26,396 bases of DNA from a virus, in IMG/VR virus record IMGVR_UViG_3300036770_000244, positions 1 through 26,396 of that record; one strand, 5' to 3'. Each line of letters opens with the position of its first letter. Positions within the stretch are counted from its first letter, which is position 1. The position numbers were made by a program, and so were the translations under genes. The notes under the pieces were generated by a model. That model saw only the letters and a list, made by a program, of their open reading frames with translations. It made no database searches and was not told where the DNA came from. Positions 4,690 to 26,396 of the stretch are shown here, in pieces.

Positions 4690-4697
4690 TATTTATG
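4690..4697 (-). promoter_or_regulatory. Late-promoter-like motif CATAAATA
   Basis: Minus strand reads CATAAATAC, one mismatch from the T4 late element TATAAATA, about 66 nt before the ATG of the 254-aa gene and overlapping the stop of the propeller gene. It matches the same extended motif found at 7391, 15935, 19666, 21388 and 26018. Confidence 0.4.
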
Positions 4698-5817
4698 ATT
4701 GTTTTGTATAAACGTAGATACGGCTACCTGCTACTCCAGGCGACGTTACAGCAATTATATTTGCATTTCTTGCTATTCCTACACCATAACCAAACGTTTG
4801 ACCAACTGCTGGTGTAGTAGGTTGTTGCAATAATTGAAATTGTTGATATGTTGTTTCTTTAGTAGTAATTAAAGCCCTATCGATTTCACTTATTCCTAAA
4901 ACTGTTATATCGCCGGCACCATTACATTTTATACAACCTTCACCTGTTGGACTAGCACTAGTAGTATAACCTCTTAAATCTAAAAATTGAGTTTCACTCC
5001 AACTATTACTGACTCTACTAAAATACCAAATACCACCTACATCACTCCAGTTATAATTAGTAAATGCCAAATCACCATTATCATCTAATGTTATTGCTCT
5101 ACCCACTTCTGCTAGTTCTGTACCACGTGCATTAGTAGGAGTAATATTATTTCTCAAGGTTAAAGTAGTACCACTTCTAGTATACGTGTGTACTCTACCA
5201 TTGTTAATCACACCACCTGTTCCAAAATCTTCATCTTGCGCACCCACAGCAATATAATTACTATCATTGCTTATTGCTACAGATATACCAAATAATCCGT
5301 TATTTTCTGGTAATGGTGAGATAAATTTACTTTGCTGTGTCCAAACAGTACCTGAACGTGTAAAGAAATATGCGGCGCCGTTATTAGTATAAGGAGAACT
5401 ATCAACATCAGATGCACCAACAATAAGATAATCTCCAGAACCATCTAATGAAACCGATCTGCCAAAACCTTGATTATTGCCAGGTATACCAGTACCAGTT
5501 AACGTTGCTTCAAGAGACCATGTAGTTCCACTGCGAGTAGCAATATAAACATTACTACCACTATAATTACCAATCGCTACAGTATCACCGTCATCATTTA
5601 TTGCTACACTATATCCTGAGTATCCTATTGTTTGCGTAGACCAGGAACTACCATCATAATAATATACGTTGCCATTACTACCTACAATGTAATTACCATT
5701 TGCTGATACAGCAACTTGTTGACTGCCATCAAGAAAATCTACTAATGGATACCAAAAATTACCTGCGGCTTGATAACCATTATAACTGCTAGAACTAAAT
5801 GTAGACCTAAATGTCAT
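4693..5817 (-). CDS. FG-GAP-type beta-propeller tail protein (374 aa)
   Basis: The protein has serial repeats of about 45-60 residues with the pattern FG.SVS.d..gdy..VGA followed by GAAYFFTRSGTVW. Examples are YSVAINDDGDTVAIG, FGRSVSLDGSGDYLIVGA, FGISVAISNDSNYIAVGA and FGYGVGIARNANIIAVTS. Each blade ends in an aromatic strand such as VYIATRSGTTW or VHTYTRSGTTL. This is the signature of FG-GAP/integrin-alpha-like propellers, and six or seven blades fit the length. There is no signal peptide. Its place between two fibre genes suggests a receptor-binding or carbohydrate-binding tip, which is inference. The ATG overlaps the preceding stop (TAATG), with GAGG about 8 nt upstream. Codon use and spacing match the neighbours, so nothing suggests recent insertion. 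Confidence 0.75.
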   Translation of the reverse strand: MTFRSTFSSSSYNGYQAAGNFWYPLVDFLDGSQQVAVSANGNYIVGSNGNVYYYDGSSWSTQTIGYSGYSVAINDDGDTVAIGNYSGSNVYIATRSGTTWSLEATLTGTGIPGNNQGFGRSVSLDGSGDYLIVGASDVDSSPYTNNGAAYFFTRSGTVWTQQSKFISPLPENNGLFGISVAISNDSNYIAVGAQDEDFGTGGVINNGRVHTYTRSGTTLTLRNNITPTNARGTELAEVGRAITLDDNGDLAFTNYNWSDVGGIWYFSRVSNSWSETQFLDLRGYTTSASPTGEGCIKCNGAGDITVLGISEIDRALITTKETTYQQFQLLQQPTTPAVGQTFGYGVGIARNANIIAVTSPGVAGSRIYVYTKQS

Positions 5818-7409: not shown

Positions 7410-10202
7410 TTACACACTGCGATATATCACTAATGCACCTTCTTCAAAAACGATGTTTGCATTGCTAGTGAAATTTCTAATTAATATTCCTGCACCATCT
7501 GATACTCCTGTAGATGTGAATACCCCATTCGCAGTCACTTTTATTGGCTGATTTTGTTTTAAATTGTAAACATTAAATCCACCATTAGTTTCTGATAATA
7601 TCTCTGTTAAATTACCAGTGACAGTGTTAAAAGGTATGGTTTGGATAGTTGCATCTACGTTTGATACAACACTTGCTACCCAATCATACCCAACATTTTG
7701 ACCTACTGGAATCAAAGTTCCAAAATATTGATAATCTACAGCGTGCCAATTTAGATTACCATTCTGTATAGCCAAAACTGCGGCATTAGCAGGTTGATAT
7801 GATGAAGTGCTATTTGCTAAGTATCCATCTGCTGTACTGCTGTTACCTGTATAGTATGGATAATATCCACCCCCACCAGAATACACATCATCAACATATT
7901 TTGGTGTTTCAAAATTACCATTAACTGACTCAAATTTAATATTTGCACCAATTGTAGTTACATTTACAGGCAAAGTAACAGTATTTGCTACTGGATTCGC
8001 AACACTATAACCATAACCAATAATTGCTTCACTTAAGTTAGTACCTGGTGTAATTTTATCGATATCGATAGAACCATCTTGTACGTTATTGCCACTAATA
8101 CCACCTGCACTGATACTGATACATGCATTGCTTAAAGCAACTGTAGGAACTAAGTTTACATTGAATTGTGTGTTACTTACCACATTAGCAACGATAGTGT
8201 TTGCTTGTAGAGTTCCAGTACCGCTTGTGATTGTTACAAGTCCACCAATCGCTAAGTTTGCAATCGCATCACTAGTAATTAATGTACCACTCGAACTTGC
8301 ATTACATGCAGTAAATGTGGTCGCACTAGTAACATTTTGTCCGTCCCAACTTACGCTATTGCTGGCGTCAGACGATATACCGGTAGTTTGATTACGTGCC
8401 AATACAGACCAGTAATATGTATTTGCGGCTAAATCACTTGCTTCAATCGTAAAGTTTGCACCATTTGTTAATGGGATGCCATTCGCATTGCTTACAGTTG
8501 TATAATATCTGTGATTAGATACGTTACTATCATTACCAACGTTAAAAGTTAAGTTAGTTACTAGACCAACGTTTGGCACACTACCACTAACTTGCATTGT
8601 TGCAATTGTGTTTGCTAACAATAATTCTACTGTAGGTGCATCTGGTTTAGTAATGATGTTTGGATCACTGATACCTAAGTTAGGATCGGGCTGAAAGTCA
8701 GTGATTGCTTGATCTGCATAAACAGTATCATTGTATTCAAAAGCAGCAATACTAACGCCCAATGATCCATCACTATATTTTTCTTCTGCAACGTTAGCAA
8801 CACGGAACAATTTACCTTTGCCACTATTCAATACATCCCAACCATATACTTCTTGCTTGATGCGAATAACATCACCCGCTTCAATCTGAATGCCTGAGTA
8901 ATCAAGTTTGAATGTTACAGTCAAATCCTCACGACTCTGTAGCAATCTGCGAATACCAAGATATTTTGCTTGAATTGCACCATTGACAACAGGAAAATCA
9001 AGATTTAATCTATTGACTGCCTCATTAGGACTCATGATACCTGGTTGATAATCTTCCAACAAGATAACCTGATAGTCAGTTTGGTCTTTGATGTATTGAT
9101 TTGGATATGCAACTTCCATTTCATTGAAAGTTTCATTCAAGTTGATTGGAGCAACATTGATACCACCAATCAAATTGCTGCTATCTACTAGGAACAAGTT
9201 GTCAATTGTAGTGTAATCAGTATAACTTTGGTTGATAATCACACGCCATTTAGCAGTTAATTCGCTATATTGCAACCAACTATCGCAACTATCTACTAAT
9301 ACTTGCAAGTTATTCAAACAATTATTTGACGTATTGATGGGGCCATTGATACGATAACGTACTTGCGAACCACCCGAATATGTGATTGTTTCATCACTAT
9401 ATGCGTTTAGGGCAGTCAAACTTGCAGTATCGATGCGTGATAATGGAATAGCACAGCCATAACGTGTGTTAACCATATAATCTAAGATTGCATCACCTGG
9501 TTTATTGATACTATTTGCCATTTTACACATCAATGCACCAAGATTGGTTGTGCCTGCATCAGTGTTATATTCAACACGAACGATAGCAAATGCACAGTTA
9601 GTCATTGTGTCTGTTGCAGTCCAACGATATCCTACTGGGATACCGCCACCAGTGCTGCTGTCGCTTAAGATTTGAATAGCAGTCTGTCCACCTGTGTTTA
9701 CACCAGAACTTGATCCATTTGTAAACAACCAAATATAAATTTTACCATTTACTTTGGTATCGATCTCTGTACCACCTGGACTGTTATTGATCAATCCAGT
9801 TACAACACCATTACTACCAAATTGTACCTTTTTACCTTCGTAATAAATGTTTGATGTGTCGAAAGTATATCCACTACCTACTGTAGTATCAGTATGTTCT
9901 GCTAGGGCAACAACATACCACATAAACTTTTGGTTCACACTAATTTTTGCATCGATGATCGGTCCACCAACGAATGCACTACCATAAATTACAGGAATCT
10001 TGTTGTCTGTTGCAGGTGGCAACTGCACACGACCGCCACCTGCAGTACCGCCGCTTCCTTGATCTGCCATTCTTTTTGCGACCAATGATGATACGCCAAC
10101 ACTTAATACAGTTGCACCAATGGCTGTAAAGATCGTTAACGCAGTACCAGTAAGACCAATCGCTGTACCGATTGCTGTTGCAATTGCTGTGAAAATTGCC
10201 AT
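7410..10202 (-). CDS. J-like central tail hub / tail tip protein (930 aa)
   Basis: Residues 1-43 are hydrophobic and Ala/Thr/Ile/Gly-rich. A Gly-rich linker follows, then VQLPPATDNKIPVIYGSAFVGGP, the usual N-terminal pattern of phage tail-tip attachment (J-like) proteins. The centre (about 240-500) has YGCAIPLSRID, NNLQVLVDSCDSWLQYSELTAKW, IGGINVAPINLNETFNEMEV and GDVIRIKQEVYGWD, matching the hub domains of that family. A fibronectin-III-like segment (roughly 510-620, KPDAPTVELL to YYWSVLARN) follows, then beta modules with ITSGTGTLQANTIVANVVSN. In siphoviruses such proteins cap the tail tube and carry or contact the fibres. Order after the tape measure and two tail-tip genes fits exactly. 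The ATG is preceded by GGGAG at 6 nt. Confidence 0.8.
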   Translation of the reverse strand: MAIFTAIATAIGTAIGLTGTALTIFTAIGATVLSVGVSSLVAKRMADQGSGGTAGGGRVQLPPATDNKIPVIYGSAFVGGPIIDAKISVNQKFMWYVVALAEHTDTTVGSGYTFDTSNIYYEGKKVQFGSNGVVTGLINNSPGGTEIDTKVNGKIYIWLFTNGSSSGVNTGGQTAIQILSDSSTGGGIPVGYRWTATDTMTNCAFAIVRVEYNTDAGTTNLGALMCKMANSINKPGDAILDYMVNTRYGCAIPLSRIDTASLTALNAYSDETITYSGGSQVRYRINGPINTSNNCLNNLQVLVDSCDSWLQYSELTAKWRVIINQSYTDYTTIDNLFLVDSSNLIGGINVAPINLNETFNEMEVAYPNQYIKDQTDYQVILLEDYQPGIMSPNEAVNRLNLDFPVVNGAIQAKYLGIRRLLQSREDLTVTFKLDYSGIQIEAGDVIRIKQEVYGWDVLNSGKGKLFRVANVAEEKYSDGSLGVSIAAFEYNDTVYADQAITDFQPDPNLGISDPNIITKPDAPTVELLLANTIATMQVSGSVPNVGLVTNLTFNVGNDSNVSNHRYYTTVSNANGIPLTNGANFTIEASDLAANTYYWSVLARNQTTGISSDASNSVSWDGQNVTSATTFTACNASSSGTLITSDAIANLAIGGLVTITSGTGTLQANTIVANVVSNTQFNVNLVPTVALSNACISISAGGISGNNVQDGSIDIDKITPGTNLSEAIIGYGYSVANPVANTVTLPVNVTTIGANIKFESVNGNFETPKYVDDVYSGGGGYYPYYTGNSSTADGYLANSTSSYQPANAAVLAIQNGNLNWHAVDYQYFGTLIPVGQNVGYDWVASVVSNVDATIQTIPFNTVTGNLTEILSETNGGFNVYNLKQNQPIKVTANGVFTSTGVSDGAGILIRNFTSNANIVFEEGALVIYRSV

Positions 10203-21826: not shown

Positions 21827-23272
21827 TTACCATGTCATGTAATCTTTGTCAGTCTCACTCATGCCAATAATTTCTTCATACGTTGGACCACCTGGATAAA
21901 GGGGACTTGGTGGCATGTGTTCTACGCCTGGTCTAATTCTGTTGATTAATCGTTGATCACTGTTAACATACTCACCAATATTGCCAGGCAAACTGTCATG
22001 TTGAATTGGGAACAAGTGATGAATACCATAACGAATCGCATCGCCTAAGCCGTCAATGTGAGCATACTTTTGTTCGGTATACTTTACTAACTTCTTGCGT
22101 GATGCATCTTCATAGTGATATGTTTGCATTGCTTCGATCAATAGTTTCTCACTATGTGGCACAACTAAACCACCACGATTGATGAATGCATTACTTGTGT
22201 TGTCAGTGTCAGCAATTAATGGATTGCTCTTACGACTGTTTACGATTGTGAAGCCATACTTCTCAATAATCGTTTTGTCTGTTACGCCGAACGGACTTGT
22301 AGTGTCACGATTGGTTTGTGCACCTGACATGTCGATGATAGAATATATTCTACGATTAGGAAAGTCTAAACGAATTGCTTCTGCAATACCTTCACTTCCA
22401 CAATCTGGGATCGCATAACTCTTTAATACTTCTATCTTGCCATCACTCTGTCCTGCTCTAGTAACTTGCGCAACGACTGCACACATGACCCTTTTGTTCC
22501 AGTCATGAAACGTGTAAATGTCGCCACCTCTGTCAAACACATCGCCACAATGTTTATGTTTGTCCCATGTATAATAGAAGGCATCACTAACGCTTTCCCA
22601 TTGGCAAAGATAATCTTGTGCGAACTTGAGGGGTGATAATATCTTTTTCTGTTCTTCAATGAATTGACGATTACCACTACGCATCTGCTCATAATTGTAA
22701 TGACGAACAATATATTTGTCAGGCAACTGTAATGCCATCTCAAACAAATCATACAATGGGCCAGTACCATTGGGCGTCGATATCACAATCAGTTTACCTG
22801 CTGTATCTGGTTGACCCACTTTAGGTCTGAGACGGTTTGTAATCTCTTGCAGAGTATCAGCAGTATAGAGTGCGGCTTCGTCAGCGATCCATACACCCAC
22901 GTTCAGTCCTCGGAGATTTTCTCGCTGTTCTGCACTCTTGCAACGAATAAACACTCCATTGGGAAACTTAATTGTTAGTTCTGAATTGTTGATATCTTTA
23001 CCATCAATTAATCCAAAATGTTCTATACAACTACGTTTTAATGGCTCCCATATGAGAGATTTAATCATTGCCCCTGTGGGCGCACTGTAAATGATATCTT
23101 TTCCACGATGATATTTCACATCACTAGCGAATATAGGCAATGCAATAGCAGCAAGAAATGTCTTGCCACTGCCTACTGGTACGATGTCAATGCTGTGCTT
23201 ATCAGTTGTAAGCCAGTCTTTTAATATCGTACTCTGTTCGCCAAACAGTGGTATATCAATCTGATTTGGCAT
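21827..23272 (-). CDS. terL: Terminase large subunit (481 aa)
   Basis: An ATPase followed by a nuclease. Walker A is VPVGSGKT (31-38), Walker B VGVWIADEA with D131 and E132, and the coupling motif STPNG is at 165-169. The C-terminal RNase-H-like nuclease has acidic residues at D257 (TFHDWNK), D314 (SIIDMSG) and D407/D411 (HIDGLGDAIRYG). It packages DNA into proheads through the portal and cuts the concatemer. The gene overlaps the small subunit by 17 nt and lacks a clear ribosome site, which suggests translational coupling. All key residues are present. Whether it cuts at cos or uses headful packaging cannot be told from the sequence. Confidence 0.93.
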   Translation of the reverse strand: MPNQIDIPLFGEQSTILKDWLTTDKHSIDIVPVGSGKTFLAAIALPIFASDVKYHRGKDIIYSAPTGAMIKSLIWEPLKRSCIEHFGLIDGKDINNSELTIKFPNGVFIRCKSAEQRENLRGLNVGVWIADEAALYTADTLQEITNRLRPKVGQPDTAGKLIVISTPNGTGPLYDLFEMALQLPDKYIVRHYNYEQMRSGNRQFIEEQKKILSPLKFAQDYLCQWESVSDAFYYTWDKHKHCGDVFDRGGDIYTFHDWNKRVMCAVVAQVTRAGQSDGKIEVLKSYAIPDCGSEGIAEAIRLDFPNRRIYSIIDMSGAQTNRDTTSPFGVTDKTIIEKYGFTIVNSRKSNPLIADTDNTSNAFINRGGLVVPHSEKLLIEAMQTYHYEDASRKKLVKYTEQKYAHIDGLGDAIRYGIHHLFPIQHDSLPGNIGEYVNSDQRLINRIRPGVEHMPPSPLYPGGPTYEEIIGMSETDKDYMTW

Positions 23273-23636
23273 CTAATGTTATTGTTACTGGAATAGCATT
23301 AACTGTTGCTGGCTCAATAGTTTCGATAGAATCTACTGACCAATCTGGCAATTCTTTTGGTGGAAAGTTGAATGCAGCATGCAAACTCTGACCCAATGTT
23401 GTATGATCGATCTCATGTTTGTCTGCAACAACTTTGCTCAATATCATTTTTTCATAGTTCTGTCTTGCAGGCATGTCACCAGCAAGAATAGTCATATGAT
23501 AACCTTCTGCTAATAATTGTTCGAATGGCTTACCACATTCTTGTTGTACTGCATCAAGAATAGTTACGCCACTAATTTTATTCTTAGTGCCTTTGGGTCT
23601 GCCAGCACCTGGCTGTGCGCCTCCACGTTTACTCAT
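23256..23636 (-). CDS. terS: Terminase small subunit (126 aa)
   Basis: It starts MSKRGGAQPGAGRPKGTKNK, the basic AT-hook-like opening typical of many phage small terminase subunits. The helix TILDAVQQECGKPFEQLLAE and a central helix PARQNYEKMILSKVVADKHE would form the oligomerisation core. The C-terminal part (SIETIEPATVNAIPVTITLD) is beta-rich and may contact the large subunit. It recognises phage DNA and starts packaging. Its ATG overlaps the stop of the 42-aa gene upstream (ATGA), and its end overlaps the large subunit gene. Confidence 0.8.
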   Translation of the reverse strand: MSKRGGAQPGAGRPKGTKNKISGVTILDAVQQECGKPFEQLLAEGYHMTILAGDMPARQNYEKMILSKVVADKHEIDHTTLGQSLHAAFNFPPKELPDWSVDSIETIEPATVNAIPVTITLDAKSD

Positions 23637-25228: not shown

Positions 25229-25606
25229 TTAGGTCTTGTTGCCAGGTTTAAACTTTTCGATGCGGTCAATGTATCTGATCTGAATGCCATCCATTTCACT
25301 GGCTTTGCGTTCATTCTCTTTATAACCACTAGCGTAAGCAGCACGTGCTTGTGCTTCTGCATCTTCACGCTTCTCGTATAGTTTGCCAGTGTCACCCCAA
25401 CGATAATAGCGTTTTCCATTTCTCATAATTGCTTGAATAGGCATGTTTTTAAGTTCCTCTCTATCTAAACGTTTAATTGTATTTATTCTACATTGTTCAA
25501 TATGTTTTTGTGCATATTGAACAGTTTTATAATTCTTTTCACAATTAGGACAACCATATCTGACAACAGTCCATATATCGTTTACTTTACGATATATCTT
25601 TATCAC
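25229..25606 (-). CDS. Zinc-finger-like protein with a phage 'RWGDTGKLY' module (125 aa)
   Basis: Residues 19-39 hold C19-x2-C22-x12-H35-x3-C39 (CPNCEKNYKTVQYAQKHIEQ plus C39), a C2HC-type finger pattern. From residue 55 a second module reads IQAIMRNGKRYYRWGDTGKL, then EDAEAQARAAYASGYKENER, a short sheet-helix unit that recurs in phage proteins near packaging and head genes. Together they suggest a nucleic-acid-binding or adaptor protein, not an enzyme. The ATG overlaps the previous stop (ATGA at 25603-25606). A late-promoter-like string lies within the coding part at 25480-25487 and may be chance. Confidence 0.65.
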   Translation of the reverse strand: MIKIYRKVNDIWTVVRYGCPNCEKNYKTVQYAQKHIEQCRINTIKRLDREELKNMPIQAIMRNGKRYYRWGDTGKLYEKREDAEAQARAAYASGYKENERKASEMDGIQIRYIDRIEKFKPGNKT

Positions 25607-25974
25607 ACTGCCTCACGTTTCTGATTATTTTTATTCATATGTTGCATGATCTGTTGATACTTTTCTTGACGTTTCTTTTGCCAAGTCTTGCTCATGGCAT
25701 CTTTATGTGCTTGTGATTTTGGTTTGCCACGTTTTGCTTCTGCCATCTTTTGTCTTTGCTCTGGGCTTTTAGGTTTGCCTTTACACATCTCACGCAATGC
25801 ATTAGCAACGTTCTTATAATGTTCGGGAGCGAGTGGGCCCGTGCCCCTGCGCCATTCAGTGTATCCTGCGTCTTGGATAGGATCGGGTATCTGATCAATC
25901 TCAAATTTTTGAATGTATTTGTTGCCTTCGGTATCAAAACGATGCCAGCGACTCCATAAGCCTTTGTATTTCAT
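25603..25974 (-). CDS. NUMOD3-containing DNA-binding protein (123 aa)
   Basis: The N-terminal half (KYKGLWSRWHRFDTEGNKYI, GYTEWRRGTGPLAPEHYKN) has no recognised domain. The C-terminal half holds two NUMOD3-like repeats, KGKPKSPEQRQKMAEAKRGK and PKSQAHKDAMSKTWQKKRQE, a DNA-binding motif usually attached to GIY-YIG or HNH homing nucleases. No nuclease core is present here, so it is either a truncated homing endonuclease or a free-standing DNA-binding factor. It is the first gene of the visible minus-strand operon, 43 nt after a perfect late promoter motif. GAGAG lies about 6 nt before the ATG. Confidence 0.7.
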   Translation of the reverse strand: MKYKGLWSRWHRFDTEGNKYIQKFEIDQIPDPIQDAGYTEWRRGTGPLAPEHYKNVANALREMCKGKPKSPEQRQKMAEAKRGKPKSQAHKDAMSKTWQKKRQEKYQQIMQHMNKNNQKREAV

Positions 25975-26016
25975 TTTACTCTCACGTTTAAATTTATGGT
26001 ATATCGTATTACAAGT

Positions 26017-26032
26017 GTATTTATATAAATAC
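26017..26032. promoter_or_regulatory. Palindromic pair of late promoter motifs
   Basis: The 16-nt sequence GTATTTATATAAATAC is a perfect palindrome. On the minus strand it gives TATAAATAC at 26025-26017, 43 nt before the NUMOD3 gene. On the plus strand it gives TATAAATAC at 26024-26032, pointing into the repeat region, where no plus-strand gene is visible. It may fire in both directions. Confidence 0.55.
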
Positions 26033-26054
26033 GTATTAGGGTTGATATTTTTAG

Positions 26055-26076
26055 AATGTTGTATTAATACAACATT
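26055..26076. promoter_or_regulatory. 22-bp perfect palindrome, probable operator
   Basis: The half-site AATGTTGTATT is followed directly by its reverse complement, with no spacer. It lies 22 nt from the palindromic promoter motif and 47 nt from the first 9-bp repeat. A dimeric regulator is the simplest explanation. No T-run follows on either strand, so a terminator is unlikely. Confidence 0.5.
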
Positions 26077-26123
26077 TAACTATCCTAAATCTATCTAGCC
26101 ATATCCTATATCGTAATTATTGT

Positions 26124-26159
26124 GTTGACGATGTTGACGATGTTGAAGGTTTTGACGTT
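26124..26159 (+). repeat. Left array of 9-bp repeats (iteron-like)
   Basis: Four units follow one another with no spacers: GTTGACGAT at 26124 and 26133, GTTGAAGGT at 26142 and the degenerate TTTGACGTT at 26151. A TTTTTCAG end (26160-26167) follows. The first 17 bases (26123-26139) are exactly inverted at 26222-26238. Confidence 0.85.
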
Positions 26160-26220
26160 TTTTTCAGGTGCTAGAATAAAAAGTTATAAAAAATTTCATA
26201 GGTTCTAAATTTCTGAAAAA

Positions 26221-26246
26221 CCGTCAACATCGTCAACATCTTCAAC
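26221..26246 (-). repeat. Right array of 9-bp repeats, inverted
   Basis: Read on the minus strand this is GTTGAAGAT, GTTGACGAT, GTTGACGG, again with 9-nt spacing, followed by TTTTTCAG (26220-26213). It is the mirror of the left array, and the two arrays face each other across an AT-rich core of 45 nt. Confidence 0.85.
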
Positions 26247-26286
26247 AGACCCTCTCGAAACCCGCATGTTTATTGACTTTTTTCAT

Positions 26287-26318
26287 GTTGAAGGTTGTGT
26301 TGAAGGTCTGTTGAAGGT
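26287..26318 (+). repeat. Third cluster of GTTGAAGGT repeats
   Basis: Three identical copies of GTTGAAGGT lie at 26287, 26299 and 26310, spaced 12 and 11 nt. The spacing differs from the 9-nt period of the other two arrays. The copies match the third unit of the left array, so one protein probably binds all three clusters. Confidence 0.8.
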
Positions 26319-26396
26319 TGCTATTTTACCCATTAAATCTGTATTGTAAAGTCACTTTGAGTAAGTTTGTCACTCTTATTTGGTATCTTGCTAGTA

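Follow-up and report, generated by a model that had tools for sequence, protein, structure and literature searches.

Two facing arrays of short repeats near one end of a viral contig very probably form the replication origin of an environmental tailed phage, laid out like the origins of SaPI/PICI satellites and recognized by the helicase encoded beside them. The window is the whole 26,396-base contig, and counts given for it refer to all of that length. The reading is drawn from sequence comparison: the array stays with the helicase gene, lies 3′ of it, is unrelated to the terminases and consists of facing iterons around an AT-rich core, which together make an origin the best explanation. A preliminary description had suggested that iterons beside an AT-rich unwinding region could mark a replication origin. 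The design of the array, where it lies, its link to the helicase and its exchange together with that gene have made this the best-supported reading. The layout, which the preliminary description did not recognize from any described phage, is not new, for it matches SaPI/PICI origins.

Iteron arrays and neighboring genes

The left inner set (26124–26159, plus strand) opens with three 9-mers, GTTGACGAT at 26124–26132 and 26133–26141 and GTTGAAGGT at 26142–26150; the next position, 26151–26159, is occupied by TTTGACGTT, so that of the four tandem 9-mers first described, three stand and the fourth is a degenerate copy. The box TTTTTCAG (26160–26167, plus strand), which occupies the same place in contig L060, forms the inner edge of this set. 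It is followed by a core of 45 nt (26168–26212) with exactly 80% A+T, which we propose as the DNA-unwinding element. A second box, CTGAAAAA (26213–26220, plus strand), has a similar CTGAAA counterpart in L060 and borders the right inner set, which is inverted (26220–26246, minus strand) and comprises 9-mers at 26220–26228, 26229–26237 and 26238–26246. Beyond these lies an outer, helicase-proximal set (26287–26318, plus strand) with GTTGAAGGT at 26287, 26299 and 26310; such outer copies are present also in L048, L060, L067 and L082. The boxes, the composition and length of the core, the three inverted 9-mers, the 17 bp exactly common to both arms (GATGTTGACGATGTTGA) and the three copies outside the facing sets are all as the preliminary description had them.

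Each arm measures 31 nt, and the two are 94% complementary and 63 nt apart. This inverted pair scores 25 (shuffle maximum, 11) and is the strongest in the window, the next-best pair anywhere in the 26.4 kb scoring 12. The pattern GTTGAMGRT would be expected 0.79 times in the window and occurs 10 times, a count that none of 100 shuffles reached.

The contig stops 78 nt past the last iteron copy, inside a gene for a D5/SF3-type (DUF5906) helicase. The part retained (26333–26395, minus strand) is its last 63 coding bases, that is, 20 codons and the stop, translated as TSKIPNKSDKLTQSDFTIQI-stop and cut by the contig end. These codons match the C terminus of the L048-type helicase, and the close relative L009/L047 preserves their reading frame. 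A hidden Markov model (HMM) made from the C-terminal 32 residues of five related helicases matches the tail with an E value of 3.9e-6, the best among 24,631 six-frame segments, a family test that on the window itself is limited to the 20 helicase residues it contains; in relatives of the window helicase, DUF5906 was assigned by HMM. Because the minus-strand tail encodes the helicase C terminus, the arrays are intergenic: they directly follow the 3′ end of the helicase gene and precede the packaging operon.

That operon, which carries packaging and structural genes, runs leftwards on the minus strand. Its leader (25975–26099) is largely conserved in L009 and was excluded from the origin; two palindromes within it, AATGTTGTATTAATACAACATT (26055–26076) and GTATTTATATAAATAC (26017–26032), likewise largely conserved there, are possible regulator sites of the late operon. 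The first gene (25603–25974) encodes a NUMOD3-motif protein that matches PHROG homing endonucleases weakly and Pfam NUMOD3 below threshold. Further along come a probable small terminase (TerS, 23256–23636), assigned by position with no HMM match, and the large terminase subunit (TerL, 21827–23272; PHROG 2, E 5.3e-37), part of a siphophage structural module on the same strand. The genes that lie beyond the tail genes in the downstream direction include one (4693–5817, minus strand) for an FG-GAP repeat (beta-propeller) protein. Near the array, cumulative GC skew has a minimum in the window and a maximum in L048, and it carries no information, since almost all genes share one direction.

Distribution and exchange among relatives

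In the close relative L009/L047 (TerL 96%), the facing sets are kept and the core sequence has diverged. Facing repeat sets also lie directly 3′ of an initiator-type helicase gene (DUF5906, VapE, DUF3987 or DUF927) in 12 other distinct contigs and 3 cultured phages, a tally into which helicase adjacency is partly built because most comparison loci were collected via primase or helicase. The exception is L114, found by DNA pattern alone, in which a near-window iteron lies 3′ of a DUF927 helicase carrying a Cch-type HTH domain. Inverted sets directly follow the stop codon of a DUF5906 helicase in L048, L060, L063/L064, L067, L068, L025, L065/L066, L074 and L082; besides L114, the same placement is found with a VapE-like helicase in L083 and with DUF3987 in L062, and the cultured phages S-LBS1, MJing1 and Mcat7 have it 3′ of a helicase or primase-helicase gene. 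Among these are phages with the gene order Prim-Pol, helicase, the gap with the facing repeats, a NUMOD3-type gene and the terminase genes, and we infer that the window phage likewise has a Prim-Pol gene, located beyond the contig end.

Array geometry is similar between groups and the repeat sequence varies: GTGAACGAT in L060, L063/L064, L067 and L068, AATAACTGCGTAA in L025, TAAGCAA and GGGGTCACACAAA in L062, AAGTGAGAA in L065/L066, AAAGCAGAGTA in L074, TGTTAGTAGT in L082 and TAGTAGCAGA in L083. Nearly the same iteron, of the GTTGACGGT type, goes with a DUF5906 initiator in the window and L048 and with one of the unrelated DUF927 family in L114. L114 has, in addition, a second, inverted repeat set of the GTGGCA type (8374–8504) between the helicase stop and its GTTGACGGT array. 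Arms are 20–33 nt long and mostly 50–73 nt apart, with extremes of 35 and 105. In all nine contigs scanned (10–40 kb), no inverted pair elsewhere on the contig is as strong as the array. On an ungapped inverted-repeat score, 13 of 16 array gaps beat every shuffle, and the gaps of L063, L065 and L068 fall within the shuffle range. Exact iterons lie without exception inside the array in the 34.8-kb L048 contig and are clustered at the array in the 39.5-kb L082 contig. The A+T content of the core is high in the window and ordinary in L083, L065 and S-LBS1, and L065/L066 have a GC-rich hairpin in place of an AT-rich core.

The layout is not universal, since NrS-1 and the Chi-like phage YSD1, which have related primase-helicases, show no array 3′ of the gene. 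A DNA-level search in named phages gave no match, and no Prim-Pol relatives were found in bacterial genomes, so no host is assigned. When contigs were scanned for the direct-repeat pattern, most matches besides L047/L048 were same-direction tandem runs lacking an inverted partner and possibly coding (GTT GAC GAT, Val-Asp-Asp), as may be the long GTTGACGAT runs of L045, L055 and L044, a warning for searches with this 9-mer. The arm-pattern scan returned L107, L110 and L113, which we rejected as chance matches in coding sequence lacking inverted partners. At the end of the S-LBS1 record (L103:6120–6544), a 127-nt direct repeat, its copies 254 nt apart, lies inside the iteron region and may be an artifact of assembly that duplicated sequence where the circle closes. 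L025 has a sub-threshold match to a TET-associated glycosyltransferase (PF20691; 335–1168, minus strand; E 2.3e-5), a possible sign that these phages have modified DNA.

Natural swaps among these phages tie the array to the helicase. L025 and L060 share Prim-Pol proteins at 92% amino acid identity, TerS at 97.5% and TerL at 96.9%; their helicases are only 26% identical and their arrays are unrelated, with DNA identity collapsing at the start of the helicase gene and resuming immediately after the array. L065 and L068 show the same pattern, as do L062 and L068. In a comparison of 11 loci, the more alike the helicases are, the more alike are the iterons once the primase is controlled for (partial Mantel r 0.59, p 0.0016, a value that is indicative given the small sample and the crude k-mer measure of iteron similarity), and the reverse test against the primase in the same loci is not significant (r 0.12, p 0.20). 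Helicases that are about 70% identical carry related but different iterons (GTTGACGAT versus GTGAACGAT). Joint exchange and the Mantel test together indicate, at the level of sequence, that initiator and iterons form a cognate pair.

Five TerL relatives (L014, L018, L031, L034 and L040) keep the NUMOD3 gene and have no array. The preliminary description had held that a core function would be doubtful if some relatives had the flanking genes but no arrays; such relatives do exist, but the adjacent helicase is missing from them too, which places the arrays on the helicase side rather than the packaging side. The chances are about even, in our judgment, that initiator helicase and origin make up a plug-in cassette, with at least three families (DUF5906, VapE-like and DUF3987), each with its own 3′ iteron array, interchanged beside a related Prim-Pol. 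Replacement of the cassette perhaps serves escape from competition or from antagonists that target the origin.

Competing readings of the array

The preliminary description had also allowed for a small-terminase (cos/pac) site or a regulator site. A packaging start bound by the small terminase would suit the window and most array-bearing TerL relatives, where the array lies about 2.5–3 kb upstream of TerS/TerL. The array does not stay with the terminase genes, however: it is unrelated between the near-identical terminases of L025 and L060, it lies about 19–21 kb from TerL in the L048, L082 and L083 contigs, and it is absent from the five TerL relatives above. In S-LBS1, moreover, it sits at about 34.4–34.6 kb, and the published PhageTerm terminus is at 25,643 (PMC6157547). 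Replacement of helicase and array together, with the terminases kept, argues against a packaging site, which we consider very unlikely, and for an origin recognized by the helicase. The suggested site for the NUMOD3 protein is rejected for the reason that relatives without the array keep its gene. It is quite unlikely that the array is instead a transcriptional operator, where a regulator bound to the repeats (perhaps the helicase) would govern the neighboring operons. It does lie between the helicase gene and the packaging and structural operon, and an autoregulatory site of the initiator would likewise travel with the helicase gene; against this, it is 3′ of the gene to which it is linked rather than at a promoter, promoter-like matches are no more frequent than chance, two facing sets across a spacer of mostly 50–73 nt exceed what an operator needs, and the layout recurs ahead of downstream genes that are unrelated, L048 and L114 being examples.

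Instead of serving as iterons, the arms might extrude a hairpin, which would make the site a pRN1-type stem-loop origin, or might function as an RNA element. The pRN1 origin is about 100 nt long (21-nt stem, 58-nt loop), lies 3′ of a Prim-Pol/SF3 gene and is not conserved in sequence (PMC4234260), and the window array folds well as single-stranded DNA (z −7.2). Yet tandem 9-mers in inverted sets account for the hairpin energy by themselves, direct-orientation copies lie outside the hairpin, and in L063 and L068 the spacing of the right-hand copies prevents a long hairpin (score 9, within shuffles) while the iterons are kept. With iterons present and the hairpin not conserved, a stem-loop origin is unlikely; an RNA family was rejected because an Rfam search of the window array found no family above the gathering score. 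Iteron clusters can also serve as partition sites, and centromere-like iterons for plasmid-like maintenance would have an example in a ParM phage (PMC6669507). The array is linked to an initiator helicase, however, and there is no partition gene among the ORFs examined beside it, which leaves a partition site extremely unlikely.

Proposed initiation and known origins

At the proposed origin, the D5/SF3-type helicase, a putative self-loading initiator, would use a DNA-binding domain of its own to contact both inner sets, with one ring assembled per side. The facing rings would melt the AT-rich core and then move apart, and the neighboring Prim-Pol, a separate gene in relatives, would prime the strands thus opened, so that replication proceeds in both directions. 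The role of the outer copies may be to help recruitment, control copy number or mediate autoregulation. In SaPI Rep and Cch2, the C-terminal domain binds iterons just downstream of the protein's own gene (PMC7581432). The predicted fold of the L067 helicase homologue matches the C-terminal region of NrS-1 polymerase and the SaPI5 primase-helicase structures, in a model of low confidence (pLDDT 58.8) built from a 10-sequence alignment, with a usable core and a poor C-terminal domain; AlphaFold run from five near-identical helicases reached a pLDDT of 36.6, and a PDB sequence search with the helicase gave no match.

The closest known systems are the SaPI/PICI origins, followed by pRN1. As in SaPIs and PICIs (Ubeda 2007; Fillol-Salom 2018, PMC6092414), the origin would directly follow the initiator helicase gene on its 3′ side, an AT-rich region is flanked by two sets of iterons and a primase gene is nearby (here in relatives). 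The initiator families found here include SaPI Rep types, which are DUF927 in SaPIbov1 and D5-like in SaPI5 (PMC7581432), and the window shares both the position 3′ of an initiator helicase gene and a helicase of a SaPI Rep family. Unlike those satellites, the phages considered here are tailed and have their own capsid, tail and terminase genes; the window has 9-bp iterons and an extra helicase-proximal set, and helicase and array are exchanged while the Prim-Pol stays. The window is not itself a PICI, for it encodes TerL, portal, scaffold, major head protein and tape measure; being a phage, it would have a PICI-like origin outside a PICI.

The origin of the crenarchaeal plasmid pRN1, like that proposed for Bordetella phage BIP-1/BPP-1, is directly 3′ of a Prim-Pol/SF3 helicase gene, and its inverted arms of about 21 nt around a 58-nt loop are close to the dimensions seen here (PMC4234260). 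Geometry rather than sequence is conserved in both cases, but the pRN1 origin is a stem-loop that lacks iterons, and the replication functions of pRN1 are fused in one protein. The alpha protein of phage P4, a helicase, primase and winged-helix initiator, binds repeats at its own origin (ori/crr; PMC4234260, PMC6092414), although its primase is of the bacterial (Toprim) type. Cch2 of SCCmec is a D5-type helicase with a separate primase whose C-terminal domain binds direct repeats (AAGTG iterons) in the downstream intergenic region, three short direct repeats being sufficient there (PMC7581432). PLE satellites swap the DNA-binding domain of the initiator RepA as one module together with its cognate iterons; their initiator is of a different family and the iterons measure about 30 bp (PMC8263062).

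We envision that this origin, if correctly identified, would extend to ordinary tailed phages a layout previously described mainly for SaPI/PICI satellites. A short origin-like element in Streptococcus thermophilus phages, reportedly described by Foley in 1998 (cited in PMC6157547), may be an earlier phage example. The interesting part is the putative exchangeable cassette of helicase and origin. Natural matched helicase–iteron pairs, which range from helicases about 70% identical to fully replaced cassettes, make the code of initiator–origin recognition directly testable, and a simple rule for finding origins in uncultured phages would be to look 3′ of the DUF5906, VapE or DUF927 helicase gene. 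Two independent contigs of this phage type break within the last helicase codons, the window at 26396 and L009 at nt 1 (L047 nt 5868); perhaps an exchanged helicase cassette makes the assembly branch at this shared point.
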